Below are positions 7,801-27,992 of a stretch of 31,874 nucleotides of DNA, one piece after another. The notes beneath the pieces were generated by a model. That model worked only from the letters and a program-made list of their open reading frames with translations. It did not search any database and was not told the origin of the DNA. This DNA comes from a virus, in the IMG/VR virus record IMGVR_UViG_3300025695_000059, positions 1 through 31,874 of that record; one strand, given 5' to 3'. Position 1 is the first letter of the stretch. Each line of letters begins with the position of its first letter. Both the position numbers and the translations under genes were made by a program.

Positions 7801-7808
7801 TATAAATA
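7801..7808 (-). promoter_or_regulatory. Late-type promoter motif TATTTATA before tape-measure copy 2
   Basis: On the minus strand this reads TATTTATA, 28 nt before the ATG at 7772. It matches the octamer found before eight other starts in the window. Confidence 0.55.
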
Positions 7809-7809
7809 C

Positions 7810-7831
7810 AAAAGAAATTGTTTTACAATTG
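7810..7831 (-). terminator. Weak hairpin after tape-measure copy 1
   Basis: On the minus strand, just after the stop codon at 7835, AATTGT and ACAATT form a 6 bp stem with an AAA loop, followed by TCTTTTGT. The stem is AT-only and the T tract is short, so it is at best a weak terminator before the next promoter. Confidence 0.3.
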
Positions 7832-7834
7832 TAT

Positions 7835-10597
7835 CTAACTTAAATTATTTATCATTTGTTGTAGTATCATTTTGGATGATAAAATAACTGTCTCATCAAC
7901 ACTATTGTCATTTGTATACCCCATTCTGTATATATTTTTTATCTTACCTTTAAGTACTATATTAAATTGATTACTGTTATAACCAATATTATTGTTAGTT
8001 AATTGATTTATATAATCTAAAGCGTAACCCTTTTTACCTTTGGTTAATTTACCTTCTTTAGTTATTATAGCATCATTCACATTTACTTCGTCAACACTGT
8101 AATCTTGGGTTGCGTCTATCGCTAAGTTGGTTACGTCAGTAGCTACGGCTATGGCTGTACCTATACCAAACACTGTTGATGCTATACCGCCACCCAGCGC
8201 TAATCCAGCTTGACCCCATTTACCCTCAACAGCATAACATATAGAGTCGAATATACCTATACCTAAACCTATGAGAGGTATTTTTTTTAATACTTGCTTG
8301 GCACCAGTTTTTAACATAGATTTAGCTATACCCTTAGCCCCAGATTGGGTTATTTTTTTCACCAGTACTCTTTTTAATTTTTTTCTACCAACACCTTCTA
8401 CTGTAGTAAAACCCATTTTAACTAATTTACCCGTAGGGTCAGCTGAGCTATAATCTTTGTTATACGCTTCTATATCATTGTTTAACCCATTTAAGTATTT
8501 ATCTTGGAACATTTGACCTGCACCCATTAACCCTTCGGATTGTATTTCTAACCCAGATTTCATTAACGATTGACCACCAACACCTACTTTTTCTTGAATA
8601 ACTTTACCTATGTAGTATATTAATTTACCTGAGTAGAACTCTAAAGGTTTTAATAAGTGTTTTATGATGTAGGGTTGTATTATATCTATTGAATCGGATA
8701 ATATTTTTGTAAAACCTTTTTGTGGGTCAGTCCATACATATAATAATTTATCTAACATACTATTAACAACTGAGGTAGCTCTTTTCATTATTTTTCCCCA
8801 TTCCCCATCAAAACCACCTGTTATGAATTTAACCAAACCATCACTGTATGACTTAACTAAATTATCTAAGTTTTGAATAGTATTATTACTAGTGAAATAT
8901 TTATCTAATACAACAAATACTTCGGAAAACCCGATCATAAATCTGTCAACAACCATGTTTATCCTTTCAGCTAGATTTTTCCTCATTATGGCTGATTCTT
9001 TGTTTTTTCTCTCTTGGTTAATCGTTTTTAATATACTAACGTTGCTAGGTATTTCGGATAACCTTTGGGTTACTCCGTTAGATAGTCTTATATTATAAGA
9101 TCCGTCTTCATTTAAGGTCATTAAATTTTTAAGTAGTTCTGATTTCTCTTCACCTATATTTAATTCAAATATACCTCTCTTCTCTAAAGCTTTTATCTTA
9201 TCTAAATCTTTACCTTGTTCTATCGCTACATTAAATAATTCTTCTGAGTCTTGACCTAATGCACTAGCTAGATTACGTATTATCTCACGATCTGCTGGTG
9301 ATATTTCAAAACCGTTTTTACCTTTGAAAGCTTTGTCTTTTAGCGATTCTATTAAGTCTGCTGTTAATTGTTCTGGTTCTAATATACTTTTACCCATTAA
9401 CACAAAAGGGTCACCAAAATAAAAAGCGAATTTACCTCCGAGTAATTTAGCTTTAGCGGCTACGTCAACTGCGATTTCTGGGTTTTTAAATGCGTCGGCA
9501 AAGTTTTTTACGGATTTAGAAACGTCTAACCTTAGTTTCTCAGTTTTAGTTACTAAATTAACCATACCTTTTAGACCCATGGTTATACCAAAACCAGTTA
9601 ACGCCACAGTAGTTTTATTTACACTGTTTAGTATTTTATATTGGTTTAGGTTTATAGCCATAGCTTTATCTCTCACATATTCCGTGAAATCTAATGTCTC
9701 GTCCACTGAATATCCTAGATTGTTAAAGTTACCCACAAATTCAGCGGCACCTTCTGTACCTAGAGCTGTACCTAGACCTAATTCTATTATTCTGGTGTAC
9801 TCTTCTTTGGAAAATAAATTATTTTTATTGGTTACGGAACTAAATTTACTGAACACTTTAGCTATATCTTCTAATTCACCACCTACGGTTAATACACCTA
9901 ACATTATATTAGGTAAACTACCTAAAAAAGTACCTGATTCACTTGCTGTTAACCCAGCGTCTGCTGATATTTTACCAGATAGAGTTTGGAATTTTAAATA
10001 CCATTTGTATGGTGCTAATATATCGAAGTTTTTAGGTATTAAGAATTTTACTACACTAATCGCTGCGTTTAATATACCTTTAGCTGCGCTTAGTAGTTTA
10101 TCACCCACAAATATAGCTATCATAGCTAAAGGGTGTCCACCTTTACCGTATTTAGCCATACCACCAGCCGCTTTAGCTGTTTCCTTTTCTATCTTTTTCT
10201 GTATTTCAGCCATTTTTTTGGCTGCTTCTAGTTGACCTCTTCTATCTTTTAATAATTTAGCTAATTTCTTATTACCAGATTTACTGAACTTATGTTCTTT
10301 TTCTCTGTATTCAGATATTTTTTCAGATAAAACTTTTTGTTCCTTTTTAAAATCCTTAGATTTTTTTATATCATCACTAACTATTTTACTAATCCTTTTA
10401 AAGTATTTACCTAATGTCTCTTGTTTGAGATCTAATTTATAATCTTCTTTTTTTGAATTTACTGAATCTATGGCGCTGTTTAGTGAGTCAGTTAAAAAGT
10501 TTTTCTTTTTATACTCACTTATATTACCGTTTTTATTTAATTCATTAACCTGATCAATTATATCAGAGAATTTTGAAGTTAGATCCCCTTGAGCCAT
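7835..10597 (-). CDS. Tape-measure-like tail protein, copy 1
   Basis: 920 residues. N-terminal ~150 residues are highly charged and coiled-coil-prone. A hydrophobic region follows near 155-195, then a long helical middle, and a glycine-rich hydrophobic patch near 800-840 (GLALGGGIASTVFGIGTAI). It aligns along most of its length with the next gene (884 residues), including the motifs NLFSKEE, NLGYS, EKLRL and ADREIIR.LASALGQ. Size, composition and place after tube and assembly genes fit a tail tape measure or a related tail-lumen protein. The ATG lies 9 nt downstream of the stop of the preceding gene, so the two are probably co-transcribed. Which of the two paralogues sets tail length cannot be told from sequence. 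Confidence 0.75.
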   Translation of the reverse strand: MAQGDLTSKFSDIIDQVNELNKNGNISEYKKKNFLTDSLNSAIDSVNSKKEDYKLDLKQETLGKYFKRISKIVSDDIKKSKDFKKEQKVLSEKISEYREKEHKFSKSGNKKLAKLLKDRRGQLEAAKKMAEIQKKIEKETAKAAGGMAKYGKGGHPLAMIAIFVGDKLLSAAKGILNAAISVVKFLIPKNFDILAPYKWYLKFQTLSGKISADAGLTASESGTFLGSLPNIMLGVLTVGGELEDIAKVFSKFSSVTNKNNLFSKEEYTRIIELGLGTALGTEGAAEFVGNFNNLGYSVDETLDFTEYVRDKAMAINLNQYKILNSVNKTTVALTGFGITMGLKGMVNLVTKTEKLRLDVSKSVKNFADAFKNPEIAVDVAAKAKLLGGKFAFYFGDPFVLMGKSILEPEQLTADLIESLKDKAFKGKNGFEISPADREIIRNLASALGQDSEELFNVAIEQGKDLDKIKALEKRGIFELNIGEEKSELLKNLMTLNEDGSYNIRLSNGVTQRLSEIPSNVSILKTINQERKNKESAIMRKNLAERINMVVDRFMIGFSEVFVVLDKYFTSNNTIQNLDNLVKSYSDGLVKFITGGFDGEWGKIMKRATSVVNSMLDKLLYVWTDPQKGFTKILSDSIDIIQPYIIKHLLKPLEFYSGKLIYYIGKVIQEKVGVGGQSLMKSGLEIQSEGLMGAGQMFQDKYLNGLNNDIEAYNKDYSSADPTGKLVKMGFTTVEGVGRKKLKRVLVKKITQSGAKGIAKSMLKTGAKQVLKKIPLIGLGIGIFDSICYAVEGKWGQAGLALGGGIASTVFGIGTAIAVATDVTNLAIDATQDYSVDEVNVNDAIITKEGKLTKGKKGYALDYINQLTNNNIGYNSNQFNIVLKGKIKNIYRMGYTNDNSVDETVILSSKMILQQMINNLS

Positions 10598-10606
10598 TTC
10601 TGTTTA

Positions 10607-11272
10607 TTAAAATTTAAAGGTTAGTGATTTACCTGATATATCTGGTCTTACACCAAAACCTATAGCCGACTTTATTGATTTATAGTTACCTGGTTTATTC
10701 AATACGTTTAAAAACACATCTAAAGATCTACCTGTTAAAAAATTATATGTTATGGTTTTCACCTTTTTAGTATCTTTTTCAACAATAGTTTCTATACTCT
10801 CGTCATTAGATACTATTTTAACCAAACCATCTTGTTTAAAACTATCATCGACAGAAACGTCTAACTTGAAATTTCTACTTAATAGAGGTTTTAAATCACC
10901 TAGTTCTGGTCCAGAGTTCTTTTTAAGGTACTCATAGTTTTTACCTAGATTAACGTTTATGTCGGGTATTCTAAATCTTTCAATCTTACCTTCTTTCATA
11001 AGGTAGAATAGAATAGATAGGACTATAACACTTAATTTATTTAGTTCGACTAGATCATCACTCTCTAAACTGTATTTATACTGATAATGGTGACCTAAAT
11101 AATTCTTCATAGCATCATCAACATCTTTATTAGCTCTACTGGCCATACTACCGTGTATTTCAGCGTGAGCGTTTGTTAAGAAATCGTCGAAGTTTTTTAT
11201 TTCATTATTCGATTCACTTAACCCCTCCATAATCAACTTAACTTGAGATTCTGTTAAAATATATTTTTTCAT
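10607..11272 (-). CDS. Unrecognised small protein with LTES N-terminal peptide
   Basis: 221 residues from the ATG at 11272. The frame is open upstream to 11299, but that extension would run through the promoter motif at 11285-11292, so the internal ATG is preferred. The protein starts MKKYILTESQVKLIMEGLSE, a peptide with the L-x-E pattern that T4-type prohead proteases cut. The rest (about 195 residues) is mixed charged and hydrophobic with no recognised domain. A late-type promoter sits 12 nt upstream, behind a bidirectional terminator. It lies just before the first tape-measure gene. It could be an internal head protein or a tail accessory protein. I do not recognise the family. Confidence 0.7.
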   Translation of the reverse strand: MKKYILTESQVKLIMEGLSESNNEIKNFDDFLTNAHAEIHGSMASRANKDVDDAMKNYLGHHYQYKYSLESDDLVELNKLSVIVLSILFYLMKEGKIERFRIPDINVNLGKNYEYLKKNSGPELGDLKPLLSRNFKLDVSVDDSFKQDGLVKIVSNDESIETIVEKDTKKVKTITYNFLTGRSLDVFLNVLNKPGNYKSIKSAIGFGVRPDISGKSLTFKF

Positions 11273-11284: not shown

Positions 11285-11292
11285 TATAAATA
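11285..11292 (-). promoter_or_regulatory. Late-type promoter motif TATTTATA before 11272 gene
   Basis: The minus strand reads GGTGATATTTATAAATA, with TATTTATA 12 nt before the ATG at 11272. The same ten bases GGTGATATTT recur upstream of the tail tube gene. The short distance would give a very short leader. Confidence 0.65.
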
Positions 11293-11302: not shown

Positions 11303-11331
11303 AAAAAACCCGCAGTTAAGCGGGTTTTTTT
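11303..11331. terminator. Bidirectional rho-independent terminator
   Basis: CCCGC and GCGGG flanked by A6 and T7 form a strong stem with loop AGTTAA. T tracts follow in both directions. On the minus strand it immediately follows the small gene ending at 11330 and separates it from the next promoter. Confidence 0.9.
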
Positions 11332-11516: not shown

Positions 11517-12278
11517 TCAGACGTAAGGCCAAAGAAACTTGGACGTAATGGGAAGTTCACCAAAAAAAAACTCTCCACTTGGAGCTTGTATATTAATCGT
11601 TAAATCTAGCCCTGGTTCGTTGTCGGTTATGTGTTTCCTAAAGCTAGATGAATCCATTGGAGACATTGAGTCTACGAATTGCATAATAGCTGATTTATCT
11701 CTGATACCATCTACTTCTGTTATTTGGTTCTGAAGTCTAAGTGTCATTATTTGAGATATCGCACTAGAACCTAATTTCTTTGTTCTAACTTGATCCTCTT
11801 TAATCAACTTCTCATCATCATTAGCATTTAGAAACCTAAATTTAACATTTTTTTGTGATCTAGGTAGTAAGAATGAACATTCACCATTTTCATCAGGATC
11901 TAGTTCTATAGATTTTACTGGTAATTGACTTATATCAATATCTTCCACAAACGTTTGATCTGTTTTAGGGTCAGTTAATTCTACTGGGTAAATTTCACCG
12001 TATCCAGTAGCTCTTAAGAAAAAGATGATAGCGTTTCTATCGCCTGGTAATAAATCACCAGCTTTGATATCTTTATCTAATATCTTCTTTTCTAATAAAA
12101 CATCTAAAACCTTACCGCTCTGTAATAGGTTTGGTGAAGTTAGGATGTTTTCATCTGAGGCCGTCATGTAGGCTACTTTAACAGATGATTTTTTGTTTTT
12201 ATAAAACATACCTTTAGAGGGTAGTTCAATAACATCATGAGCTGGTTCAAAATAAACTTGTTGTTCTGAGTTTTCCAT
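11517..12278 (-). CDS. T4 gp26/gp51-like baseplate or tail assembly protein
   Basis: 253 residues. LPSKGMFY at 19-26, LLPGDRNAIIFFLRATGYG at about 76-94 and a C-terminus ending FLWPYV resemble the T4 baseplate protein family that includes gp26 (Pfam T4_baseplate). Members are hub or assembly factors of contractile tails. The gene lies between the tail tube and tape-measure genes, which is where tail assembly chaperones are normally found. Nine consecutive T at 11562-11570, coding for FFF near residues 237-239, lie inside the overlap with the downstream frame. A late-type promoter is 32 nt upstream. The family assignment is from remembered motifs and should be treated as probable. Confidence 0.65.
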   Translation of the reverse strand: MENSEQQVYFEPAHDVIELPSKGMFYKNKKSSVKVAYMTASDENILTSPNLLQSGKVLDVLLEKKILDKDIKAGDLLPGDRNAIIFFLRATGYGEIYPVELTDPKTDQTFVEDIDISQLPVKSIELDPDENGECSFLLPRSQKNVKFRFLNANDDEKLIKEDQVRTKKLGSSAISQIMTLRLQNQITEVDGIRDKSAIMQFVDSMSPMDSSSFRKHITDNEPGLDLTINIQAPSGEFFFGELPITSKFLWPYV

Positions 12279-12310: not shown

Positions 12311-12318
12311 TATAAATA
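12311..12318 (-). promoter_or_regulatory. Late-type promoter motif TATTTATA before the gp26-like gene
   Basis: The minus strand reads TAGTATTTATAAAAAG, 32 nt before the ATG at 12278. Because the core is nearly self-complementary, a plus-strand reading (TATAAATA) is also possible here. Confidence 0.55.
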
Positions 12319-12349: not shown

Positions 12350-12357
12350 TATTTATC
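12350..12357 (+). promoter_or_regulatory. Late-type promoter motif TATTTATC before the Vsr-like gene
   Basis: The plus strand reads TATAGTATTTATCTAAAAG, with the octamer ending 15 nt before the ATG at 12373. It shares TAGTATTTAT with the minus-strand promoter at 12311, so the two face away from each other across about 30 nt. Confidence 0.6.
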
Positions 12358-12372: not shown

Positions 12373-12786
12373 ATGGCTAAAAAGAAAGTTAAAAAGAAAA
12401 ATAAAATGCGTTCAGTTAGAAAAAAGATGAATGGTACTTCTAAATTAGAGACTTCTTTTGCTGATATACTTACGGAATTGGGTATAAAATTTAAACAGCA
12501 CTATGTTTTTAAGGAACGTGAATTCGATTTTCTTTTAACTGATCATAATATAATAGTTGAAACTCACGGTTGTTTCTATCATTGCTGTAAACAACATAAC
12601 CCAGAAGCAAAATATGCTTTTCAAAGAGCTAACCTTAAGAATGATAAACATAAAGTTAAACTAGTTAAGTTTGATCATAAGTATACATTATTGGTTATCT
12701 GGGAACATGAAATGAAAGAGAATGATGTACTCGTAGAGAGAGTTAATAAATTTATCACTAAGCATAGTAAATTACTTAACGATTAA
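12373..12786 (+). CDS. Vsr-like (PD-(D/E)XK-type) endonuclease
   Basis: 137 residues, with a very basic N-terminus (MAKKKVKKKNK) followed by a compact nuclease domain. KLETSFADILTELGI, then REFDFLL, IIVETHGCFYH and LLVIWEHE follow the order seen in Vsr-type very-short-patch repair nucleases and related homing endonucleases: a DF acidic strand, a V(D/E).GCF(W/Y)H strand with the metal or water-positioning histidine, and a C-terminal W-E strand. It is the only plus-strand gene inside the tail block, has its own promoter and a hairpin terminator, and so behaves as an inserted unit. A DNA repair, DNA degradation or homing role is possible; sequence alone does not decide. Family confidence is good, function uncertain. 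Confidence 0.75.
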   Translation: MAKKKVKKKNKMRSVRKKMNGTSKLETSFADILTELGIKFKQHYVFKEREFDFLLTDHNIIVETHGCFYHCCKQHNPEAKYAFQRANLKNDKHKVKLVKFDHKYTLLVIWEHEMKENDVLVERVNKFITKHSKLLND

Positions 12787-12857: not shown

Positions 12858-13346
12858 TTAGTAAACCAATATACAACGGTCCATTCTTAATGTAGCTGAG
12901 ATATCTGCAATTTCATCATCACTGTATTCTAATGACCCAAAATCAACATTAGTTAAGAAGGTACCTTGAAGTATCCATTTCTCAACAACAACACCAGTCG
13001 GATCTAACATCTCTAGTTCAATATCTTTTTTATAACCTGCGGCATAACCCATACGTCCAGTTACTGACTCTGCGTGTAGACGAACCCATTCCATTAAAGC
13101 TTGAGAAGCTGAAGGACCAATTGGATCTTTAAAGGTAACATCAATAGATTCCCAGTTAAATCTACCAGCAACATAAGTTGAGGTATTTAAGAAAGGTATT
13201 TCTACTTCATTTATTGTAACCTTTGGTCTAGATGTAGATATCACAAACCACTCGTTAATACCTAGTGAACTTGGAAATCTTAAAATAAATCTGTTCTTCT
13301 TCTTTGGTTCGTAAGGAACAGGCATTTTCATTAATAAGTTAGCCAT
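12858..13346 (-). CDS. Tail tube protein, T4 gp19-like
   Basis: 162 residues, close to T4 gp19 (163). The N-terminal region (PYEPKKKNRFILRFPSSLG), the VTFKDPIGPSASQALMEW strand-helix, the VEKWILQGTFLTNVDFGSLEYS segment and the D.C..Y C-terminus match the gp19/Hcp-like tail tube fold. The protein polymerises as hexamer rings to form the inner tube through which DNA passes. It lies downstream of the sheath gene as in T4 but is separated by a 600 nt non-coding spacer. It has its own late-type promoter 34 nt upstream and ends at a bidirectional terminator. Confidence 0.9.
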   Translation of the reverse strand: MANLLMKMPVPYEPKKKNRFILRFPSSLGINEWFVISTSRPKVTINEVEIPFLNTSTYVAGRFNWESIDVTFKDPIGPSASQALMEWVRLHAESVTGRMGYAAGYKKDIELEMLDPTGVVVEKWILQGTFLTNVDFGSLEYSDDEIADISATLRMDRCILVY

Positions 13347-13380: not shown

Positions 13381-13388
13381 TATAAATA
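13381..13388 (-). promoter_or_regulatory. Late-type promoter motif TATTTATA before the tail tube gene
   Basis: The minus strand reads GGTGATATTTATAAG, 34 nt before the ATG at 13346. A second similar site (GACTATTTATATTAAAC) lies further upstream at 13505-13512. Confidence 0.65.
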
Positions 13389-13602
13389 TCACCAATTTTC
13401 CCTTTGTACGGATAATTCTAAAAAAAAGTTATTTAATTACGATTTAATTAACTATATTTGCTAGACCCCTACAGGTACGTTGGTTATTATACTTTATTGT
13501 TTAATATAAATAGTCTCAAAACCTCTTTTATTAAAAAAAATCAAAAATAATTTACTAAAAACTTGACTTTGTGGTTTTCAATCCTTATTTTTGATAAGGC
13601 TA

Positions 13603-13790
13603 TTATCCAGACCCCCCTATATATAAATAATATATATATATATAATAATATATAATATAATATAGGTACCTTATATATAATATATAATAATATTATAATA
13701 ATATAATATATAATAATATTATAATAATATAATATAGGTACCCTTATATATATAAATTATAATAACTTTATTATATTATTATTTATCCAG
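13603..13790. repeat. Direct repeat TTATCCAG flanking the A/T block
   Basis: TTATCCAG occurs at 13603-13610 and again at 13783-13790, bracketing a 172 nt nearly A/T-only segment. The arrangement looks like a target-site duplication, though eight bases can recur by chance. Confidence 0.4.
13683..13736. repeat. AT-only tandem repeat, 26 nt period
   Basis: A 28 nt A/T-only unit at 13683-13710 recurs exactly at 13709-13736, giving a 26 nt period with a 2 nt overlap. It sits between two TATAGGTACC sequences (13661-13670 and about 13733-13742). Confidence 0.85.
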
Positions 13791-13896
13791 CGCTAGCATC
13801 TATTTCTGATTTCTATAATAGACCAATCATTTAGATTCCTATTCTTAACTATTTACGCACTGAGTGATTTTTATATAAAACTTTATTAAACAAAAA

Positions 13897-13926
13897 AAAA
13901 GAGAGTAAATTAATACTCTCTTTTAA
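13897..13926 (-). terminator. Terminator after the tail sheath gene
   Basis: AAAAGAGAGTA and TACTCTCTTTT form an 11 bp stem with a 6 nt loop. On the minus strand it is followed by a run of T and lies about 20 nt after the sheath stop codon at 13947. Confidence 0.85.
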
Positions 13927-13946
13927 TTTCTATTATTTTATGTTAT

Positions 13947-16900
13947 TTAAATATCATCAAAAGATACATTTTGAGGTGTTACCGTAAATTCAAGTTCTAT
14001 AAACTCAAGTGTTGGTGTAGGTTTAATAAAAATCTTACCTCTTAATGTGTTTCTGTCTCCATCTTCAATATCCATTTCAACTGAAACTCTAAAGTCTGTT
14101 AAACCTCTTTCTTTTCTAATGTTATCCAATATAGGGTTAACTAATGATAGGAATTGGTTTCTAACTGTAGTATCATTCGGATCGAATAATAATCTCTTAG
14201 AGACACTCATAATTAATCTTCTAGCTTGAAGTAATAGTCTTCTAATATTAAGTCTATCCAACGCACTAGATTTAACTTGTAAGTTTCTGTTACCCCATAT
14301 AACAACCCCTACATCTGAATATGTAGCTAAAGGGTTAATTCTACCTGGGTAAAGTACATCTCTAGCTTCTTGATCTAAAGCTATACGAGCTCTATTACAT
14401 TTAACCAAACCTCTGTTGTAACCAGCTGTAGCGAACCATGGGAAAGAAACGTTATCTGTATAAGCTAAATTTCTAACTACCTCAGCCGTTGGTGGGATAT
14501 ATAGGTTAGCATTATTATCAGTATCGTTTATCTGTATCCAAGGGTAGTATATAGCTGTATAACTAGAGTCTATTTCAGTACTCTCTAACTCGTCAACTAT
14601 ATCCTCAGCATAATACCAGCTTTCTGAATCAGAAGGGTTATTATTGTTAAGTAATTTAATATCTGGTAGAGTAGGTAAATAGATAGTATCTAATCTCTTC
14701 TCTTCAACTATTTCAATAGCATCTCTAACTAAGTCAGTATTGTTTAATAAATCAATTCCTGGTGTAGTTAATATGTTTATAGCTATCTCTTCTGGGTTTT
14801 GCATTGTTCTTAAACCGTATAAAGTCGCATAATAATCTGAAGTACCGAATAATTCAGCATATTCAACATTAGTAAACGTATCGAAAACACCATTAACGAA
14901 ACCAGTTCTACCTACTTTGTAGTCATCTGTATTTGTTCTATTAACTCTGTAAGCGTCCCATCCATCAAAACCACCTGAAAATAAACAAGTGAATTTTCTA
15001 GTTCTCATACTGTTATAAGGGTGAGTAGTTGTACCATCTACAACGATAGGATCATTAAAAGTACCCACACCTACTGCGAAAACTTCGCTGTTAGTAACTG
15101 AGTCGATTATTGAAGATGCGTTAACATCCATATGGAATCCTTTTGTTTTAGTATTGTAATCATCACCAGTATTATAAGCGTTATCACCTAATATACTTTT
15201 CTTACCTTTGAATAGTAATAAATCTTGATCATAACCAAACTGGCTAGAGAATCCTAAATAATGTTTACGTACAACATCACCAGAAGAAACAACAGCGTTA
15301 TCGAAAGGTGGGTCGAATATAACATCACCAGGTGAATAATATTCTAATTTATAAGGCATTTCTGGTACTGAAAGGCTTCCAGCATCATCTACTCTAAATT
15401 CGTATCCTTCAAAACCAGCAGCAACTGCATCAGAAGGTGCGTTATTAGCCATTTCAAGAACGACATAACTACTTTTTAAAGGGTATTTATTATCTATTGT
15501 ACCAATTTTTCTACCGATATAATTGTCTAATGTCTCATCCATAGTACAATCAAGGAATCTTTCTAAAATAACTGGTGATTTATCAGTATCTTTAAAAGAT
15601 CTTATATATAAATCGAATGTCTTCTTAGATAAATCTACGTTAGCGATAGATAACTTAATTTCAAAGTTAGCGTTAGTACCATCTGATATAGAAATTAATC
15701 TAAACAATCTTTGTGGTAACCCACCTCTAAGTTCAGATACTATAAAAGGTGTTACTGGTGACTGGAATTGGAATTTATAATGATCCCAATCATTTTCAGC
15801 TACTAGCTCAGTATGTAATCCTTTAATCTTACCTTGTAATCTACCTAAGTTTAAAGAGTTATCATAAACTTCTTCAACAAATATCATAGAATCTTTATCA
15901 TTAGGTGTAGACCCAATAACTTTCTTTATATAATTAGATTTATCTCTATCTAAAGAAACTGTATAAGAAAACGTATTACCAGCTGGATTAGCAGTTGTAC
16001 CCGTCAAGTCGAATGCTAAATAAGGGTCGTTAACCAACTCGTCTTTTGAAGACATACCTAAAGAAGCAACATCAAAAATCAACCTATCACTAACATAACC
16101 ACCTCTACTTCTTAAAGTAGCAACGGTTTTATTATGACCTTCCTCGTTAGGTTTTGCTGATAAATGAGTTACATATAACTCTAATTCACCAGTAATAGTA
16201 CTTGCCCCACTAGGACTGAAAGAATGGCAGAAAAGACCAAAACTAGTACCTTCATATTCTCCAGTACTTGAATTATAAATCATCTCATTATTTAATATGT
16301 AAGAATCTCTATCGGAAGCTGGTACACTTAAAGGTAGATTATAAGAATCTACGTAATCTGGTGCCAATCCATTAGAAACTATAGCATCAGCATCAATATC
16401 AGTTTCTAACTGAGAAGTTAATAACCCCCAGTACATAGAATGTTTTTTATCGTAAAATTGTGCATTCTGATAACCACCTATAGTAGTAAAGAAACTATTG
16501 AATACAACAGAAAATTCATCCTCCGATATTCCAGTTTCATCAGAAACATATGCTATAAGTTCAGTAGAACCAGAGACACCAGGTACATAAAAACTATCTG
16601 TAGCCGTATCAAATTCAAAAGATATAGATGTTTTAGTAACACCAGTTGTAGCCAACGTAGTATCATCAATAGCCCCCATAGTCTTAAGAGACCAAGCCAT
16701 ACCAGCTTCATACCCAGATAAACCCAATACTCTTGTTACGTATAATTGGTTTGATTGAGATAAATACTGTTTAGCTATATAAGGTAATTCATATTTAACT
16801 ATTTGTGTATTTTTAAATTTTTGTGGATCAGTTCCACCGAAAGTCGTTTGGAATTCATCGAAATTCCTGATAAACATAGGTTGAAAAGCAGGTCCTTTAA

Positions 16901-17046: not shown

Positions 17047-17054
17047 GATAAATA
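17047..17054 (-). promoter_or_regulatory. Late-type promoter motif TATTTATC before the sheath gene
   Basis: The minus strand reads TTTAATATTTATCAATAAG, with the octamer 37 nt before the ATG at 17009. The last base differs (C) as in the copy before the nuclease gene. Confidence 0.6.
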
Positions 17055-17881: not shown

Positions 17882-17883
17882 AA

Positions 17884-18434: not shown

Positions 18435-18452
18435 GTTTAATATATTAATGAA

Positions 18453-18480: not shown

Positions 18481-18520
18481 TATTAAATAATAAGGTTTAT
18501 ACGATATAAATGCGTACAAC

Positions 18521-20299
18521 ATGAAACTACCTATAGAAAAAAGGGCTTTAGATATATTAAAAACTTACAAAGGGACTAATGATCACATATTAAAGATAAA
18601 AGGTGATTATAATAAAACTAAAAGTTTTGTCCCCACAAAAGCTCAGAGTAATTACATTGTAAGAAATGGTTATGTGGAACCAATTATCGTAAATAAACTT
18701 TTCACGATAAACCCATCATGTAGAAATTTTATATCAGAACAATTGAAATTAGATTTCATACCAGAAGAAGTTTTTGTTAATAAACTTTTAAGTAGGAAAA
18801 ATGATTTACTACATATAAGCGGTTGTTTTGAAGAAGGTTGTAACGAAAACTTTGTTTTCTATATTTCAAAAACCTGTATAAAACCGATAAAAACTGAACC
18901 AGATATCGATATAAGTAAATATTCTAGGCCACCAAAACCCCACCAAGTAGACGCTATAAAGAAATTATTAAGTAATGATAAGTTTATATTAGCTGACGAG
19001 ATGGGTCTAGGTAAGACAACCTCAGCAATAATTTCTGCGATAGAAGGTGGTGCTGAAAAGATATTAATAGTTTGCCCAGCCTCATTAAAATTAAATTGGG
19101 AGATAGAGATATCTAATTACGACTCGTTAGATAATATAAGTGTTGTTAATGGTAATAATTTTGAAGTTAAGAAATGGACAATAGTCAACTATGATATTCT
19201 AAAAAATTTCCACCATCTACCTAGGAGAGGTGTTAATACTGAAGATCTACCTGTGTCACCTATTGATTATCATAAATTCGACTTAGTTATAGCTGATGAA
19301 GCACACTACTTAAAAAATTCACAATCTAATAGAACTAAAATATTTAACGACTTCGCCTTCAAGATACCAAAGAGATGGTTACTAACTGGTACACCTATAA
19401 CAAATAAACCTATAGACTTTTACAACCTACTACACTTATGCGAGTCACCAGTAGCCGACAATTGGGTTGGTTACGTTAAAAGGTACTGTGCTGGTAAACA
19501 ATTCAACAGAAAGGGTACTAATAAAAAATATTGGGTATGTTCTGGGTCATCAAATCTAGAAGAGTTAAATGAATTTTCATCAGACGTAATATTCAGAAGA
19601 ACAAAAGATCAATCGGTTGACTTACCTCAAAAAACAATAAAACCAGTTTATTTACCACTAGAATTTTCTAAAAGTTATAATGCTTATATGAAAGAGTATA
19701 AAGATTGGCAGGAAGAAGCTAAACTTACTGGTGAGAAACCAAATGTAACCGAACATTTAACTAAATTAATAAAAGTTAGACAATTACTATCTTATGATAA
19801 GATACAAACAACCATTGATATGGCCGAAGAGATGATAGAAAATGGTCACAAGGTTATTATATTTAGTTGTTTCACAAACACTATAAAAGAATTTGAAGCT
19901 CATTTTGGTAATAAATGTGTTACTATAGACGGTTCTGTCTCTGGAATAAAAAGACAAGATGCTGTAGATAGGTTTCAAAATAACGAAAAAACGAAAGTGT
20001 TCTTAGGTAATATTGTAGCCGCTGGTGTTGGGTTAACCCTAACTGAAGGTAGTGTTGTAATATTTAATGATTTAGACTGGACCCCAGCAAATCATATGCA
20101 AGCTGAAGATAGAGCTCATAGAATAGGACAAGAAAATAAAGTACATATAATATACCCTTTATTTAGGGATACTTTAGATATGATAATGTATAAAACATTA
20201 CAAACTAAAATGGATATTATAAGTACTATAATGGGTGATAACCCAAAAGAAGATAATACATCTATGAGTAAAGAAGTTATTAATAGTTTAAATAGTTAG
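18521..20299 (+). CDS. SNF2-family DNA helicase/translocase
   Basis: 592 residues. An N-terminal domain of about 135 residues is not recognised. The helicase core begins with KPHQVDAIKKLL (about 139-150). Motif I is DEMGLGKT at 159-166, motif II is DEAH at 259-262, motif III is LTGTP at 288-292, and motif VI is AEDRAHRIGQ at about 528-537. These are diagnostic of SNF2 ATPases of the SMARCAL1/HARP type, which translocate on duplex DNA and can remodel or anneal forks. Phages such as T4 use UvsW-type superfamily 2 helicases for related work, so a fork remodelling or recombination role is inferred. It ends in a 4 nt tail-to-tail overlap with the GP88-like gene. Confidence 0.95.
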   Translation: MKLPIEKRALDILKTYKGTNDHILKIKGDYNKTKSFVPTKAQSNYIVRNGYVEPIIVNKLFTINPSCRNFISEQLKLDFIPEEVFVNKLLSRKNDLLHISGCFEEGCNENFVFYISKTCIKPIKTEPDIDISKYSRPPKPHQVDAIKKLLSNDKFILADEMGLGKTTSAIISAIEGGAEKILIVCPASLKLNWEIEISNYDSLDNISVVNGNNFEVKKWTIVNYDILKNFHHLPRRGVNTEDLPVSPIDYHKFDLVIADEAHYLKNSQSNRTKIFNDFAFKIPKRWLLTGTPITNKPIDFYNLLHLCESPVADNWVGYVKRYCAGKQFNRKGTNKKYWVCSGSSNLEELNEFSSDVIFRRTKDQSVDLPQKTIKPVYLPLEFSKSYNAYMKEYKDWQEEAKLTGEKPNVTEHLTKLIKVRQLLSYDKIQTTIDMAEEMIENGHKVIIFSCFTNTIKEFEAHFGNKCVTIDGSVSGIKRQDAVDRFQNNEKTKVFLGNIVAAGVGLTLTEGSVVIFNDLDWTPANHMQAEDRAHRIGQENKVHIIYPLFRDTLDMIMYKTLQTKMDIISTIMGDNPKEDNTSMSKEVINSLNS

Positions 20300-21566: not shown

Positions 21567-21574
21567 TATTTATA
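21567..21574 (+). promoter_or_regulatory. Late-type promoter motif TATTTATA before the neck-like operon
   Basis: The plus strand reads GTTACTATTTATAATAAAT, 15 nt before the ATG at 21590. It decides the start: the upstream in-frame ATG at 21554 lies before the promoter. Confidence 0.65.
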
Positions 21575-21589
21575 ATAAATAAATTACAG

Positions 21590-22681
21590 ATGAGAATAGA
21601 TCCTGCCGAAAAAGCGAAAATATACAAACAAACCAAGCACAGACTTGGTGCTCCTATAAGAAAAATACAATTAGAGGAAGATCAATTAGATTCCCTACTT
21701 GAGGTAGCAACAGAAGATTACGTAGAGTTTATACACAACTGGTTGATAGAACATCAATGGCCAAGTTTAGTAGGACTTAATGTCAATGAGGCTGATCTTA
21801 CTCGAGCATTTCTTTATAGAACCTTTGACCTAGTTACCCAATACACTTACTCTTATTCAAAAATAGTAGGTTTAGGTGCTGGAGAAGGTGGTTATGTAAT
21901 GAAGAAAGACTTTTTCGAATTAGAAAAAGGTAAACAAATGTATGAAATTCCAGCTAACAGAGAGATAAACGAAGTCCTATGGTTTACGCCAGCCTCATTA
22001 GATCAATCAGTTATAGACCCATTTTTAGGTGTATGGAATAATCAATTTGGAGCAGAATACATGGGGTTAGGTAGTTATTATATATTACCAGCTTTCGATA
22101 TACTAATGAGAACCACTGATAGAAACCTTAAAAACAGGATGATAAGAAGTGAATTGATTTATAAAATAACTAACGCACCAGATGGTAAAAAATACGTTCA
22201 CTTAATGAACACTCCTGGTGGTAGGTTTGATTTTAGAGCGGCAACATTTAATTCAGGTAAATGTTGGTATTGGTATTACGACATTAACCCAGAAATAAAA
22301 GACGATTGTTTAGCTAAAAACAAGGATATAATAAAATCGCCAATGGACGTACCTTTGGATAACGTAGATTTTGATGACCTAAATGATCCAGCTAAAATAT
22401 GGATAAGAAGATACTTTGTTGCTTTATGTAAAGAGACTTTAGGTAGAGTAAGAGGTACTTTTGGTGGTAAAATACCTGTACCAGACGCTGCTATGGAAAT
22501 GGAATACCAGTCACTACTATCAGAAGGTAAGGATGAGATGGTCACATTAAAAAAAGAGTTAGAAGATAGAATGGTTAGGTTTAACCCACTAGAAATGTTA
22601 AAAAGAATGTCGTCTGAAGCAGAAGAGATAAATAAAGCTTTAAAATATAGAGCGTTCCCTACACCAATAAAGATAATATAA
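21590..22681 (+). CDS. Virion structural protein, neck-like (gp13-like candidate)
   Basis: 363 residues, starting MRIDPAEKAKIYKQTKHRLG. The segments RLGAPIRKIQLEEDQLDSLL, AREINEVLWFTPAS (in part), IWIRRYFVALCKETLGRVRG and IPVPDAAMEMEYQSLLSEG resemble neck and connector proteins of large myophages, which carry an ALAKE-LG-RG-x-P-x-P pattern in their C-terminal half. No membrane or signal segments are present. The ATG at 21590 follows a late-type promoter. The stop overlaps the next start by one base (TAATG), so the three genes to 24596 form one translationally coupled unit. The neck role is probable rather than shown. Confidence 0.5.
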   Translation: MRIDPAEKAKIYKQTKHRLGAPIRKIQLEEDQLDSLLEVATEDYVEFIHNWLIEHQWPSLVGLNVNEADLTRAFLYRTFDLVTQYTYSYSKIVGLGAGEGGYVMKKDFFELEKGKQMYEIPANREINEVLWFTPASLDQSVIDPFLGVWNNQFGAEYMGLGSYYILPAFDILMRTTDRNLKNRMIRSELIYKITNAPDGKKYVHLMNTPGGRFDFRAATFNSGKCWYWYYDINPEIKDDCLAKNKDIIKSPMDVPLDNVDFDDLNDPAKIWIRRYFVALCKETLGRVRGTFGGKIPVPDAAMEMEYQSLLSEGKDEMVTLKKELEDRMVRFNPLEMLKRMSSEAEEINKALKYRAFPTPIKII

Positions 22682-24195
22682 TGAGATATAATGAATCATA
22701 TAAAAATGATTATTTTGATCTCACTATAAGTAACGACTCAAGAGACTTCGAAAGAGACTACAGTGATTGTGATTTGATAAATATTGATGTAACAAAAAGT
22801 TTGTGTTCTATAAAAAATAGGTACGAAGGATCTGACGTTACCATAGATAATATCACATTAACTGGTTACGATAATTATTTTTTAAATCACAGTGATAAGC
22901 AAGACCCTGACGCTATAATACAGAAGACGAGCAACGATGTGGAAGTATTCTCAAACCCAACTATAAATTATGTTGTTGAGAAAGGTGATACGTTTTGTTT
23001 ACACCCAGTTTCTGGGTACACTGGTTTATACACCTACAATATAGAATTAAACAAGTTAGATAGAGGGCAATACTATAACCATTTAAAAGGTGGTTTCTAC
23101 CAAGGATTTTTTAAAATAAATAACCAACCAGTAGAATGGTTCCCACATAGAGCTAAACTAGGGTGGACAGCTAATAAAGTTATACACCTACCACTACATA
23201 ATGACCCCAACGGCAAATTATTAAATAATAATTACCCTGGGAACGAAGGTTTTATATTCTACTTAGGTACTAGAGCTGAAAATAAATTCTCTGACCTAAC
23301 CGATATAGAAATAAGTAAACTTGACGAACACTACTCTATAAAACCCAAGGAAGGTAAAGCGATTTATAGTTATAAAGAACCAATAACACTGAACGGTATA
23401 GATAGATATATCGGTTATTACACTTTCCATAACGGATCAATGTATAGCGGTAGATCCTACACAGTGGATTCTAAACCTTTAAAATATCACGAGGAATATA
23501 AAGACTTAGATTATAACGCTATAGGGGTTAGAATAACAGAAGACGGTAGGATAGGTTATAGAGCTATATACCCTACAGATAAATGTTATACTGGTTCTAC
23601 TCAAGATGTGACTGGTATAACCACAAACTCTTTCATAACTGAACCAGACGACCAATGTAAAAATCACTCTGTGAGTAAAATAGTTACAAAACATATGACC
23701 ATAGAGGAGTGTTACACCAAAAAACCTATAATAAATTTAAATGAGAATAAATTCTTACATATAAGCACTGTATTTGAAAGAGACTTCCCTTATAATACTG
23801 ACTGTGAGTTGAAATATGGTGATTATAAAAAAGGTACTTTATCAATATACATTAACGGGTTTTTGGTTTTAAGGAACCATGATTTTATTGAAATTATAAC
23901 ACATGCTTTAGATGAACAGGATGAGTTACAAAAAACAGTACCCTACAACATATCTTTCGGTGGCGGTACTCAAAACTTAATCGAAGCTACGTATTTAGAT
24001 AACACCAAAAAAATAGATACGGTACTAGAAAGATTTTTCGCTGGTACATTTATGGGAGGAGTCAAAGACCTACAAATGCTATGTGTACCTCTGTATACTA
24101 TGGAGATAAAAGAAATAGTCAAATCAATAAAACCAAAATACGGTTTAAGAACAATAAACGGTGGCCGAAAGGTATTTATAAATAAATTATTCTAA
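22681..24195 (+). CDS. Virion structural protein, unrecognised
   Basis: 504 residues rich in aromatic, asparagine and glycine residues, as in beta-rich virion proteins. A segment near residues 115-170 (GYTGLYTYNIELNKL, then GGFYQGFFKI and GWTANKVIHL) and later YINGFLVLRNHDF with a GG.Q.L segment suggest a jelly-roll or concanavalin-like surface fold, but this is a guess from composition. Its start overlaps the upstream stop and its stop overlaps the next start (TAATG each time). Being between a neck-like gene and a BppU-like gene, it probably belongs to the neck, collar or a fibre. No catalytic motif was recognised. Confidence 0.55.
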   Translation: MRYNESYKNDYFDLTISNDSRDFERDYSDCDLINIDVTKSLCSIKNRYEGSDVTIDNITLTGYDNYFLNHSDKQDPDAIIQKTSNDVEVFSNPTINYVVEKGDTFCLHPVSGYTGLYTYNIELNKLDRGQYYNHLKGGFYQGFFKINNQPVEWFPHRAKLGWTANKVIHLPLHNDPNGKLLNNNYPGNEGFIFYLGTRAENKFSDLTDIEISKLDEHYSIKPKEGKAIYSYKEPITLNGIDRYIGYYTFHNGSMYSGRSYTVDSKPLKYHEEYKDLDYNAIGVRITEDGRIGYRAIYPTDKCYTGSTQDVTGITTNSFITEPDDQCKNHSVSKIVTKHMTIEECYTKKPIINLNENKFLHISTVFERDFPYNTDCELKYGDYKKGTLSIYINGFLVLRNHDFIEIITHALDEQDELQKTVPYNISFGGGTQNLIEATYLDNTKKIDTVLERFFAGTFMGGVKDLQMLCVPLYTMEIKEIVKSIKPKYGLRTINGGRKVFINKLF

Positions 24196-24596
24196 TGATA
24201 TTCAGTATAAGACAAAACTCAACGTTACCAACATTAAAAATGAAAGTTTTAAAAGACGGTAGACACGACTTCAGACATTTCGAGGAGTTACTAGAGAACT
24301 CTGTAGCTACATTCGCTATGAAGGACCAAGAAACAGGTATTTATAAAGTTGCTAACAAAGAAGCTAAAGTTGTTCTAGAGAAACCCTGTGAGGAAACATC
24401 TGAAAAAAATTATATAGTTACATACCAACTAACAAAAGAAGAGACTAACAAACCAGGTATATTTTTGGGAGAATTTAAAATAACCTTATTCGACCTTTAC
24501 GACCCAACCAAGGTTTATGGTGAGTTAATAGCACCTATACACGAACAACTATATATACATATATTAGATTCATTTGTTAAAACAGATATAGTATAA
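24195..24596 (+). CDS. Small structural protein, BppU-N-like
   Basis: 133 residues. FSIRQNSTLPTLKMKVLKDG, then a segment VATFAMKDQETG and a later IVTYQLTKEETNKPG and GEFKITL match the beta-sandwich pattern of N-terminal domains of phage baseplate upper proteins and similar small virion proteins. In those proteins the domain attaches a receptor-binding part to the virion. Here the domain stands alone and lacks a C-terminal fibre region. It is the last gene of the coupled three-gene unit, ahead of the structured intergenic region. Assignment is tentative. Confidence 0.5.
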   Translation: MIFSIRQNSTLPTLKMKVLKDGRHDFRHFEELLENSVATFAMKDQETGIYKVANKEAKVVLEKPCEETSEKNYIVTYQLTKEETNKPGIFLGEFKITLFDLYDPTKVYGELIAPIHEQLYIHILDSFVKTDIV

Positions 24597-24623: not shown

Positions 24624-24654
24624 TTGACAAGGGGGGTACAGTTTCTTATATAAT
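24624..24654 (+). promoter_or_regulatory. Possible sigma70-like promoter, TTGACA with TATATAAT
   Basis: TTGACA at 24624-24629 precedes TATATAAT at 24647-24654 (17 nt to TATATA, 19 nt to TATAAT). A transcript from here would run through the hairpin at 24701-24760. Bacteroidetes hosts do not normally use this promoter type, so the match may be chance. Confidence 0.3.
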
Positions 24655-24700
24655 GTAAAAAAAAGGTGATTATCGTTGCTAATTTTATTATATTAATAAA

Positions 24701-24760
24701 TTTGGAGAAAAAAGGTTGTCCCTATATTAATTACAATAGGAGTACCCTTTTTTCTCCAAA
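24701..24760. ncRNA. Long hairpin, candidate structured RNA or terminator
   Basis: TTTGGAGAAAAAAGG at 24701-24715 pairs perfectly with 24746-24760. The stem continues inward with one A-T pair, two G-T pairs and a CCTAT/ATAGG pairing, interrupted by two mismatches, around a 10 nt loop at 24726-24735. It is not followed by a T tract in either direction, so a plain terminator is less likely than a structured RNA. Confidence 0.55.
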
Positions 24761-24781
24761 AAACTAATTCTCAGTAAATCT

Positions 24782-24804: not shown

Positions 24805-24836
24805 TTTGTTTAATTTAAAACTTTATCTTATATTTG
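24805..24836 (+). promoter_or_regulatory. Bacteroidetes-type promoter before the DNA polymerase gene
   Basis: TTTG at 24805-24808 and TATATTTG at 24829-24836 are 20 nt apart. This matches the -33/-7 consensus of the Bacteroidetes primary sigma factor (TTTG, about 20 nt, TAnnTTTG). Transcription would start about 15 nt before the ATG at 24859. It suggests early expression by host RNA polymerase. Confidence 0.7.
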
Positions 24837-24858: not shown

Positions 24859-27800
24859 ATGGCTGGATACAAGATACCTTTAGAAGATATAGAAAAATTT
24901 CTTAACGGACATGATGATGAGAAACACATCATTAACATAGAGTATGACAGAGATACAAACCTAATACATAAGATAAAACAACATCCAGAAGATGGTGTTT
25001 ATATAGAAAAAGAACCTTTATTAGCCTTTATGTGGATTAAAAACCTCAACAAACTAAAGGAACGTGTTAACTTTTATGGTAATAGTGATGCTAAGATAAA
25101 ATCAGCAAGAGAAAAATTTGGTATAGAAATAAAATCACTAAGACACAGTGATCATCCTAAATTAGTAGATGGTTATAAGTATCTACTAACCTGTAACCAA
25201 GGTCACCAAAGGATGTTAGATTTTTTTAGAGAAGGTGGTATATTCGTTTACGATAAAAGACCAGAGATAAGAAGTAACTTTTTAATGGTATCCCCAGTTG
25301 AACAGTATTTAATACATACTGGTAAAAGATTATTCAAAGGTTTTGAAGAATATTCAGAAATACATAAATTAGTATTCGATTTAGAAACCACTGGTTTAGA
25401 TCCTGAATATAGTAGGATATTCATGATTGGTATGTACACCAATAAAGGTGTTGAAGAAATTATACCTATAGAAGACGATGATGAATCTGAAAGACAAGGT
25501 ATTATTAAGTTTTTTGATAAGATAAACGAAATAAAACCCGCAATTATAGCTGGTTACAATAGCGCTAACTTCGATTGGCCTTTCTTCTTTAAGAGATGTG
25601 AAATATTAGGTTTAGATATACAAAAAATAGCTATAACATTAAAGACTGGTGAGTTAATCAACAATAGGTCTGGTATGCTTAAATTAGGTAGTGAAGTTGA
25701 GAACTACGAACAAACAAATATGTTCGGTTATAGTATTATCGATATAATTCATTCAGCTAGAAGAGCCCAAGCAATTGACTCAAGTATGAAATCAGCGGGG
25801 TTAAAATACGTATGTAAATACAATAAAATAAACAAAACTAATCGTGTTTATATAACTGGTGATAAAATAGGTGACACCTGGTACTCAGGTGATACTTTTT
25901 ATTTTAATGATAGAAATGGTACGTATAATAAGACAAAGGCATCTATAGAATTTACAGATAATATATCTAGAGAATACGTACAATCACACCCAGACGAAAT
26001 ATTTGTTTATAGTGAGAACTACCTTAGGGAAGGTTACGGTGAAGAATCAAAAGAGATGAGAGGTGAACCTAACACCGTAGGTATTGTAACCAGAAAAAAA
26101 TCAGGTACCACTGAAGACTCGTTCTTTAATGATTTGGAATTTGAAGAAAATAAAATTAAGATAAACGAGGGTATTAAAGAAATAATAAGTTTTATTGATG
26201 AGGGTAAAAAGATAAATTTCCCTACACAAGGTATAGGTGCTGATTCTTCGCAATTAAAACTGAGAGCACCAAAAACTTACGAATTCCTAATACAAACCTT
26301 AAAAGCGTTAAGAGCGTATATTGATACGATAAAAGAAGTAGATGGTAAATATATAGTCGAAAGATATCTTATTGATGATTTATGGGAAACAATGGAAGTT
26401 GATGAGATTTACAACCAAACATCTTTTCTGTTAGCTAAATTAGTACCAACCACATATCAAAGAGTATCAACAATGGGTACAGCTGGTTTATGGAAGTTAC
26501 TAATGATGACATACTCATTCGAAAACGGTATAGCCGTACCTACACCAGAAGAAAGACGTAGTTTCACAGGTGGTTTATCTAGATTATTTAAAGTAGGTTA
26601 TTCAGAAGAATTAAGGAAAATGGATTACGATTCATTATACCCAGCTATACAATTAGCTCACGATATATTCCCTAGTTCGGATGTAGACGGAGCTATGAAG
26701 TCTATGCTAAAGTATTTCCATACAGAAAGATTTAAAGCTAAAAACCTAGCAAGTAAATACAAGAAAGAAGGTGAGTACCAATTAGCCGATAAATACAAAA
26801 GAAAACAATTACCACTTAAAATATTTATAAACTCTATGTTCGGTGCGTTAGGTGCACCTTTAGCATTCCAATGGGCCGAAATAGACGTAAGTGAACAGAT
26901 AACCTGTACAGCGAGACAATACCTAAGATTATTAGTAATGTTCTTCATAAATAAAGGTTACGATCCGTCGGTACTAGATACTGATGGTGTTAACTTCACA
27001 GCACCCGAGAGTGGTGAGGATTTTACTTACATAGGTAAAGGTATTAGTAACAGTGTTGAGGAAGGTAAAGTTTATACTGGTGTAGATGCTACGGTAGCAG
27101 AATTTAACGACCTATATATGCGTAAAGAAATGGGTTTAAGTTTAGATGGAGCCTGGCCTTCAACTATAAACCTCTCAAGAAAAAATTATGCTTTACTAGA
27201 ATACGATGGTGGTATAAGTCTTACTGGGAATAGTATAAAATCTAAAAAATTACCTATGTATATAGAGGAATTTCTAAAAGTGGGTATTAAATTATTATTA
27301 GAAGATAAAGGATATGAGTTCGTATCTTATTACCATGAATACGCTGAAAAAATATATAATAGAGAAATTCCTTTAGCTAAAATAGCTACCAAATCAAGAG
27401 TTAAGAAAACGATAGAGAGTTATAAGAACAGAGGTTCTGATAAAAACGGTAGACAATTACCTAAACAAGCACACATGGAGTTAGCTGTTATAAATGATTT
27501 AGATATTAATTTAGGTGATACCATATACTACGTGAACAACGGTAAAACTAAATCTCACGGAGATTCACAATGTGATAAAGAAGGGAATATGTATGCTTCA
27601 TTAGTACCTATGGATATAATAGAGAATAAACCAAATGAGATTGGTGAATATAACGTACCTAAATACTTAGACGCTTTCAATAAGAAGATAAAACCATTAT
27701 TAGTGGCTTACTCCTTAGATGTTAGAAATAGAATCTTAATAAAGAAACCTGAAGACAAAGAGATATTCCTAAGATCTGAATTAAAGTTAGTTAATAACCA

Positions 27801-27960
27801 ACCAAATGACGTCAGTGATCAAGATACCTTATTAGAATTCTACACCCCTTCACCAACAGAAAGAGAGTTCTGGGATAAGTTATCATACAAATCAGATTTT
27901 TGGTTTGAGGATGATATAACATTTAGAATACCTGGGTTTGACGAAGAAATTAAAGTTTAA
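24859..27960 (+). CDS. Family B DNA polymerase with 3'-5' exonuclease
   Basis: 1033 residues. Exonuclease motifs: FDLETTG (173-179), AGYNSANFDWPF (231-242) and Y291-x3-D295. Polymerase motifs: DYDSLYP with D589 (motif A), K654 to G662 in KIFINSMFG (motif B), and D707-T-D709-G (motif C, where DTDS is usual). The order and spacing fit a full-length replicative enzyme with both proofreading and synthesis, of the T4 gp43 type. The first 165 residues form the usual N-terminal domain. A Bacteroidetes-type promoter precedes it, unlike the late-type motifs of the structural genes, so it is probably an early or middle gene. No intein or intron is visible. Confidence 0.97.
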   Translation: MAGYKIPLEDIEKFLNGHDDEKHIINIEYDRDTNLIHKIKQHPEDGVYIEKEPLLAFMWIKNLNKLKERVNFYGNSDAKIKSAREKFGIEIKSLRHSDHPKLVDGYKYLLTCNQGHQRMLDFFREGGIFVYDKRPEIRSNFLMVSPVEQYLIHTGKRLFKGFEEYSEIHKLVFDLETTGLDPEYSRIFMIGMYTNKGVEEIIPIEDDDESERQGIIKFFDKINEIKPAIIAGYNSANFDWPFFFKRCEILGLDIQKIAITLKTGELINNRSGMLKLGSEVENYEQTNMFGYSIIDIIHSARRAQAIDSSMKSAGLKYVCKYNKINKTNRVYITGDKIGDTWYSGDTFYFNDRNGTYNKTKASIEFTDNISREYVQSHPDEIFVYSENYLREGYGEESKEMRGEPNTVGIVTRKKSGTTEDSFFNDLEFEENKIKINEGIKEIISFIDEGKKINFPTQGIGADSSQLKLRAPKTYEFLIQTLKALRAYIDTIKEVDGKYIVERYLIDDLWETMEVDEIYNQTSFLLAKLVPTTYQRVSTMGTAGLWKLLMMTYSFENGIAVPTPEERRSFTGGLSRLFKVGYSEELRKMDYDSLYPAIQLAHDIFPSSDVDGAMKSMLKYFHTERFKAKNLASKYKKEGEYQLADKYKRKQLPLKIFINSMFGALGAPLAFQWAEIDVSEQITCTARQYLRLLVMFFINKGYDPSVLDTDGVNFTAPESGEDFTYIGKGISNSVEEGKVYTGVDATVAEFNDLYMRKEMGLSLDGAWPSTINLSRKNYALLEYDGGISLTGNSIKSKKLPMYIEEFLKVGIKLLLEDKGYEFVSYYHEYAEKIYNREIPLAKIATKSRVKKTIESYKNRGSDKNGRQLPKQAHMELAVINDLDINLGDTIYYVNNGKTKSHGDSQCDKEGNMYASLVPMDIIENKPNEIGEYNVPKYLDAFNKKIKPLLVAYSLDVRNRILIKKPEDKEIFLRSELKLVNNQPNDVSDQDTLLEFYTPSPTEREFWDKLSYKSDFWFEDDITFRIPGFDEEIKV

Positions 27961-27984
27961 CCCGAATATTACTAAAACTAAAGA

Positions 27985-27992
27985 TATTTATA
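27985..27992 (+). promoter_or_regulatory. Late-type promoter motif TATTTATA before the 28005 operon
   Basis: The plus strand reads AAAGATATTTATAATAAAAT, 12 nt before the ATG at 28005. It probably drives the run of genes up to the terminator at 30897. Confidence 0.65.

Follow-up and report, generated by a model that had tools for sequence, protein, structure and literature searches.

IMG/VR virus record IMGVR_UViG_3300025695_000059 is a 31,874-base contig of a T4-like myophage, analysed here over its whole length (the window), and the element under study is a short AT-rich string, TATTTAT followed by A or C, that recurs before its genes. Recognised genes encode the tail sheath, the tail tube, a gp26-like baseplate protein, a UvsW/SNF2-type helicase, a connector/adaptor-like protein and a family B DNA polymerase; searches of the window for tRNA and Rfam families returned none. 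Viral metagenomes are rich in sequences related to its sheath, tube and polymerase. By sheath, the closest named phages are Microcystis phage Mel-JY01 (PP395634), an uncultured phage of 484 kb and Flavobacterium phage immuto (MW353176), which is in culture; Mel-JY01 and immuto both carry the TATTTAT motif. The first-pass annotation had listed nine octamers on the two strands, and all nine are present, 12–37 nucleotides (counted from the octamer) before the ATGs at 7772, 11272, 12278, 13346, 17009 and 18405 (minus strand) and 12373, 21590 and 28005 (plus strand). The partly shared flanks that it described are likewise there, GGTGATATTTATAA occurring exactly twice in the record and TAGTATTTAT before both 12278 and 12373, and a tenth core, which it had overlooked, lies at 24173–24180 (plus strand) before the gene at 24195. 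The predicted promoter cores and the features that bear on them are given below, orthologue counts being of distinct upstream sequences per window gene.

7801–7808, minus strand: predicted late promoter core TATTTATA of gene 5118–7772, kept in every one of the 7 orthologues that are at least 54% identical.
11285–11292, minus strand: predicted late promoter core TATTTATA of gene 10607–11272, 10 nucleotides past a terminator-like hairpin; 6 of 6 orthologue upstreams.
11303–11330, minus strand: the terminator-like hairpin, with a T tract; the core at 11285–11292 follows it and the ATG (11272) comes another 12 nucleotides on.
12311–12318, minus strand: predicted late promoter core TATTTATA of the gp26-like baseplate gene 11517–12278; TATTTAT in the closest relatives only, TATTTAA in others.
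12350–12357, plus strand: predicted late promoter core TATTTATC of a Vsr-like endonuclease gene, 12373–12786; weak orthologue support.
12858–13346, minus strand: tail tube protein gene (phrog_4542, E 1e-27).
13381–13388, minus strand: predicted late promoter core TATTTATA of the tail tube gene; 71 of 71 orthologue upstreams.
13947–17009, minus strand: tail sheath protein gene (phrog_23, E 3e-54).
17047–17054, minus strand: predicted late promoter core TATTTATC of the tail sheath gene; 14 of 14 orthologue upstreams.
18427–18434, minus strand: predicted late promoter core TATTTATA of gene 17884–18405; 14 of 14 orthologue upstreams.
18521–20299, plus strand: UvsW/SNF2-type helicase gene (phrog_62, E 1e-108); TATTTAT in 0 of 17 upstreams.
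21567–21574, plus strand: predicted late promoter core TATTTATA of the connector/head-tail adaptor-like gene 21590–22681; 10 of 10 orthologue upstreams.
21575–21581, minus strand: opposed TATTTAT abutting the preceding site (TATTTATAATAAATA); ATAAATA in 10 of 10 orthologue upstreams.
24173–24180, plus strand: the tenth core, TATTTATA, inside the 3' end of gene 22681–24195 and before gene 24195–24596; 11 of 13 orthologue upstreams.
24859–27960, plus strand: family B DNA polymerase gene (phrog_262, E 1e-48); TATTTAT in 0 of 11 upstreams.
27985–27992, plus strand: predicted late promoter core TATTTATA of gene 28005–28571; 6 of 6 orthologue upstreams.

When sense-strand TATTTAT within 60 nucleotides of a start was counted for the 23 genes of the window tested for an upstream motif, it was found before 10 of them, the corresponding figure in 5000 dinucleotide-preserving shuffles having a mean of 1.28 and a maximum of 7, and it is the commonest 7-mer in the upstream regions of the window's genes. 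Over the window as a whole the excess is only moderate (29 matches to TATTTATM against a shuffled mean of 15.7, standard deviation 4.7; one shuffle in 100 reached that count), since the DNA is rich in A and T and the remaining matches mostly lie elsewhere than before starts; the comparison with shuffled sequence, a check that the first-pass annotation had proposed, is thus modest for the window and decisive before starts. In a de novo ranking of all 7-mers in the 70 nucleotides before genes, by observed against expected counts, TATTTAT came top in each of five near-complete relatives (39/8.7, 32/7.6, 31/7.1, 48/11.2 and 44/8.0, with z between 8.6 and 12.4). It was also first in the late region of immuto, with 16 occurrences against 1.2 expected, and in part of Mel-JY01, with 10 against 1.8. 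The method is validated by two controls, T4, where it recovered TATAAATA, and cyanophage S-SSM5, where it recovered ATAAATAA. Orthologous upstream regions retain TATTTAT while their flanks and spacing diverge; before the tube gene the seven core positions are invariant, most flanking positions vary and the gap to the ATG ranges from 30 to more than 50 nucleotides. The element is real and conserved, a genome-wide signal of a large phage clade.

A logo built from 163 TATTTAT sites of the five relatives gives the consensus V-TATTTAT-A, with T nearly absent before the core, A after it, and A-rich positions 4–5 nucleotides downstream of the 7-mer. It contains no element at −35 or −33, and the TATTTAT sites differ from the Bacteroidota sigma-A pattern (TAnnTTTG with TTTG at −33). 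The distance to the ATG is most often 10–19 nucleotides, and the motif is oriented towards the downstream gene; position and strand bias before starts are both evident.

Several individual sites deserve comment. The abutting elements at 21567–21574 (plus) and 21575–21581 (minus) may form a bidirectional pair serving the connector gene and the divergent GP88-like gene. Among the upstream regions of 24195 orthologues that carry the core, three have a different, non-coding-like context. The nuclease-gene site before 12373 is present as first described and is poorly kept in relatives. The sheath and tube genes are separated by a long AT-rich intergenic stretch (13389–13946) with TA/ATT repeats, in which two extra copies of TATTTATA (13505 and 13622, minus strand) precede no gene. 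The adjoining long genes 5118–7772 and 7835–10597 are paralogous to each other, judging from cross matches in relatives.

The statement of the first-pass annotation that the element marks mainly structural genes, on both strands, and is absent before the polymerase holds across relatives: in the five near-complete ones, TATTTAT precedes 32 of 57 recognisable virion genes versus 4 of 41 replication genes (Fisher test, p 2e-6). In immuto it is commoner in the virion-gene half at 78–160 kb (21 of 79 versus 14 of 135, p 0.004, with a division point of our own choosing). A second type of promoter shows the opposite association. The Bacteroidota primary sigma factor recognises TTTG at −33 and TAnnTTTG at −7 (PMC7366714, PMC9723704), and a scan for TTG, a spacer of 18–23 nucleotides and TAnnTTTG placed such promoters before 2 of the 57 virion genes versus 10 of the 41 replication genes (p 0.003); the two kinds of element avoid each other (p 0.004). 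Four relatives contain 13–21 host-type promoters versus about 1 in shuffles (G001, 21 versus 1.1), G003 contains 7 versus 0.9, and immuto shows no excess. This enrichment indicates that the hosts are very probably Bacteroidota. A general sigma-70 scan of the window was uninformative (87 matches against a shuffled mean of 103), and the only host-type promoter detected in it is the following.

24806–24836, plus strand: Bacteroidota sigma-A type promoter (TTG, spacer, TATATTTG) before the DNA polymerase gene 24859–27960.

Between gene 24195 and the polymerase, at 24640–24780, there is also a long inverted repeat (the region GGAGAAAAAAGG...CCTTTTTTCTCC) that is probably a terminator. The helicase gene at 18521 is preceded (18435–18520) by TTGACT-16-TACAAT, where relatives conserve TTGACTTT instead of TATTTAT; a middle promoter is possible. 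In Mel-JY01 (PP395634.1, 140000–189900) five TTG..TAnnTTTG promoters were found in 53 genes (shuffled mean 0.28, maximum 3) together with TATTTAT late promoters, and its recorded host, Microcystis elabens, may merit re-checking given these Bacteroidota-type promoters.

The window, as a fragment, does not include a sigma factor gene; a search of its near-complete relatives for a gp55-like protein yielded a candidate. The late sigma family phrog_234 gave one weak match each in 8 of 11 relatives, always to an open frame of about 235–248 amino acids, and another late sigma family, phrog_12791, matched nothing. A profile built from 54 of these proteins aligns with the gp55 of T4 and cyanophages over region 2 (E 9e-6, probability 83). 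Its best sequence match in PDB is gp55 of 7d7c, with region 2 collinear, and a search of the complete T4 genome with it returns gp55 alone (E 9e-4). Exactly one copy is present in each of nine relative contigs, immuto and Mel-JY01 (11 of 11), and none was found by the profile in Rhodothermus phage RM378. The copies in immuto (immuto35A_152) and Mel-JY01, both annotated "hypothetical", are only about 24–27% identical to that of the relative G001. A Foldseek search with the predicted structure returned mostly sigma factors as top matches, none with E below 0.1. The T4 pocket residues L54, R57, F86 and Y97 correspond to I, R (45 of 53), F and Y in the family, H95 is replaced by Tyr or Phe and all 53 sequences have glycine at the equivalent of T99, a pattern consistent, at the level of sequence, with shifted specificity.

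The computation thus shows a conserved motif, biased in position and strand, that goes with virion genes, host-type promoters that show the reverse association, and one gp55-like protein per relative searched. TATTTAT is almost certainly a promoter, and there is good support for its functioning as T4 late promoters do. We put at about 0.82 the probability that TATTTAT(A) is the late promoter core of a Bacteroidota T4-like myophage clade, read by host RNA polymerase with a diverged gp55-like phage sigma factor. The octamer would act as a −10-like core, read in the normal direction by host polymerase carrying the gp55 homologue of about 235 amino acids encoded elsewhere in the genome; transcription would start some 5–6 nucleotides after the octamer and the genes so marked would be expressed late, while early and replication genes would tend to use the host sigma-A promoter (TTTG, spacer, TAnnTTTG). 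The suggestion in the first-pass annotation that a phage sigma factor may read the motif thereby gains a candidate in every relative searched, with the reading of TATTTAT by that protein a prediction from these associations.

Several observations weigh against this interpretation. The links to gp55 are singly weak (E 0.05 in PDB; best Foldseek E 0.15, for a model with a mean predicted local distance difference test score of 78 and a predicted template modelling score of 0.46). About 44% of recognised virion genes do not have TATTTAT directly upstream, though this would be expected for operons. The 484-kb LR756508 encodes a 27% identical sigma factor, but in two stretches of 50 kb TATTTAT is not enriched, from which promoter and sigma factor appear to drift together over longer distances. 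The clamp and coactivator of the T4 late system also failed to appear: phrog_223 and PF02916, representing the gp45 clamp, match T4 only among T4 and the relatives tested, and the single gp33 candidate compared, the protein beside the sigma gene, gave no match, gp33 not having been searched for further. Separately, the top upstream 7-mer in LR756508.1 180000–229900 is ACTTAAA, in several cases followed by GACA, possibly a further late promoter variant.

A clamp of the bacterial beta type (DnaN) was not found in the relatives tested either, and a more diverged clamp is possible. By eye, the sigma alignment contains no C-terminal clamp-binding tail resembling SLDFLYE, a different conserved C-terminal part standing in its place. 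The gene after the sigma gene encodes a conserved protein of about 125 amino acids in G001, G002, G003, G006, G007, G013 and immuto (L248:2170–2553 and orthologues), and in Mel-JY01 a small open reading frame of 131 amino acids also follows it. We do not favour this neighbour as the coactivator, since it shows no gp33 match (hhalign probability 1.3) and has its own TATTTAT promoter in G001. A tentative idea, which we think rather doubtful, is that the late sigma works without the clamp-and-coactivator apparatus of T4, with TATTTAT, as a re-specified core, read by a protein that joins region 2 of gp55 type to a conserved C-terminal domain; that domain might be a helix-turn-helix resembling region 4 and docking on the polymerase flap.

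The alternative that survives best, yet is unlikely, is that a host sigma factor, primary or alternative, reads the element. Phages often use host sigma factors, and flavobacteria have several alternative sigma motifs (PMC9723704). The host-type promoter, however, is a different motif, found in these phages upstream of other genes and largely exclusive with TATTTAT, so that host-type promoters are accounted for separately; TATTTAT, moreover, lacks a −33 element, and a gp55-type phage sigma factor is encoded in every relative examined.

An RNA element in the mRNA leader, controlling translation or decay, is considerably less probable still. TATTTAT does sit in the leader zone, and leader elements, RegA sites for example, are known in T4-like phages, but its distance to the ATG is highly variable, from 0 to more than 60 nucleotides, and close downstream genes, for example those at 7835, 17114 and 28564, do not have it. 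One copy comes directly after a terminator-like hairpin; the order of hairpin (11303–11330) and then, 10 nucleotides later, the core at 11285–11292 implies that transcription restarts there, upstream of 11272, and is hard to explain otherwise. Position and form also match those of T4 late promoters, and from spacing and terminator context we regard a leader element as very improbable.

The first-pass annotation had described the core as the T4 late core reversed, and TATTTATA is indeed the exact reverse complement of TATAAATA. Because TATNNATA is self-complementary, however, TATTTATA can equally be read as TATAAATA with AA changed to TT at positions 4–5, in the same direction and register, which is the simpler reading. 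The T4 late core spans −13 to −6 (PMC1524935), and in the T4 open complex gp55 captures the non-template bases at −12, −9 and −8 (PMC7892883). In this register the bases held in the deep pockets, A-12 and A-8, are both retained in TATTTATA, the only changes being at −10 and at the shallow-pocket −9. The ordinary orientation also fits the near-absence of T just before the core, the A-richness that follows it and the bias to the strand of the downstream gene. Use of the T4 core in reverse, by flipped binding or from the other strand, is further disfavoured by the single polarity in which sigma reads the non-template strand (PMC7892883), by the precedent of drift in Aeromonas phage Aeh1, whose CTAAATA accompanies a diverged gp55 (PMC1524935), and by TATTTAA as the top upstream 7-mer of RM378; on palindrome and register we reject it as scarcely credible. 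Chance matches in AT-rich intergenic DNA, against which the first-pass annotation had cautioned in view of the near-palindromic core and to which the modest raw excess over the window would lend something, are ruled out by the shuffles, the de novo ranking and the conservation in orthologues, and deserve the least credence of all.

As a late promoter probably read by a diverged gp55 homologue, TATTTAT is best placed as a new variant of the T4 type. The T4 late promoter consists of one box, placed roughly a helical turn upstream of the start, with AT-rich sequence after it and nothing at −35, and is usable on either strand (PMC2988020). The clade shares with it one 8-bp box, AT-rich downstream sequence, the lack of a −35 element, use on both strands, location before virion genes and a gp55-related sigma factor (PMC2988020, PMC1524935), and differs in having TT for the central AA, in a sigma factor about 50 amino acids longer, with its conserved C-terminal part and Gly at the T99 equivalent, and in the lack of a detected gp45 (relatives tested) or gp33 (one candidate). 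TATAAAT before the relatives' genes is far rarer than TATTTAT, and the strict T4 consensus TATAAATA does not describe their sites. Aeh1 is alike in that a T4-like late core has drifted along with a diverged gp55 (PMC1524935), but there the change is at −13/−12, whereas that of the clade is at −10/−9. Cyanophage S-SSM5, a T4-like phage with a readable gp55, has the late core ATAAATA, which retains the AAA of T4, and TATTTAT was not seen before its genes. Immuto and Mel-JY01 have both TATTTAT and one copy of the clade sigma family, and differ in the low identity of their sigma factors to that of G001. The Bacteroidota primary sigma promoter occurs in the clade phages as well, before replication genes such as that for DNA polymerase, but has another box and a −33 element and tends to exclude TATTTAT. 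In RM378 (NC_004735.1, 1–50000) TATTTAA was seen 12 times upstream against 1.4 expected, including before the tube and sheath genes, and is a probable unreported late promoter variant.

No earlier report of TATTTAT(A) as a phage promoter was found in the open-access literature, most subscription papers lying outside the reach of that search. A late signal and a probable late sigma factor can now be named for a large clade of Bacteroidota phages, most of them uncultured, where that protein is "hypothetical" even in the cultured member, and the motif allows operons and timing to be predicted in hundreds of metagenomic genomes. The promoters TATAAATA of T4, CTAAATA of Aeh1, TATTTAT of the clade and TATTTAA of RM378, with their sigma factors, form a natural set for studying how the specificity of phage sigma factors changes. 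If the clade sigma factor does work without a clamp, late transcription in these phages may be uncoupled from replication as linked through the gp45 clamp.

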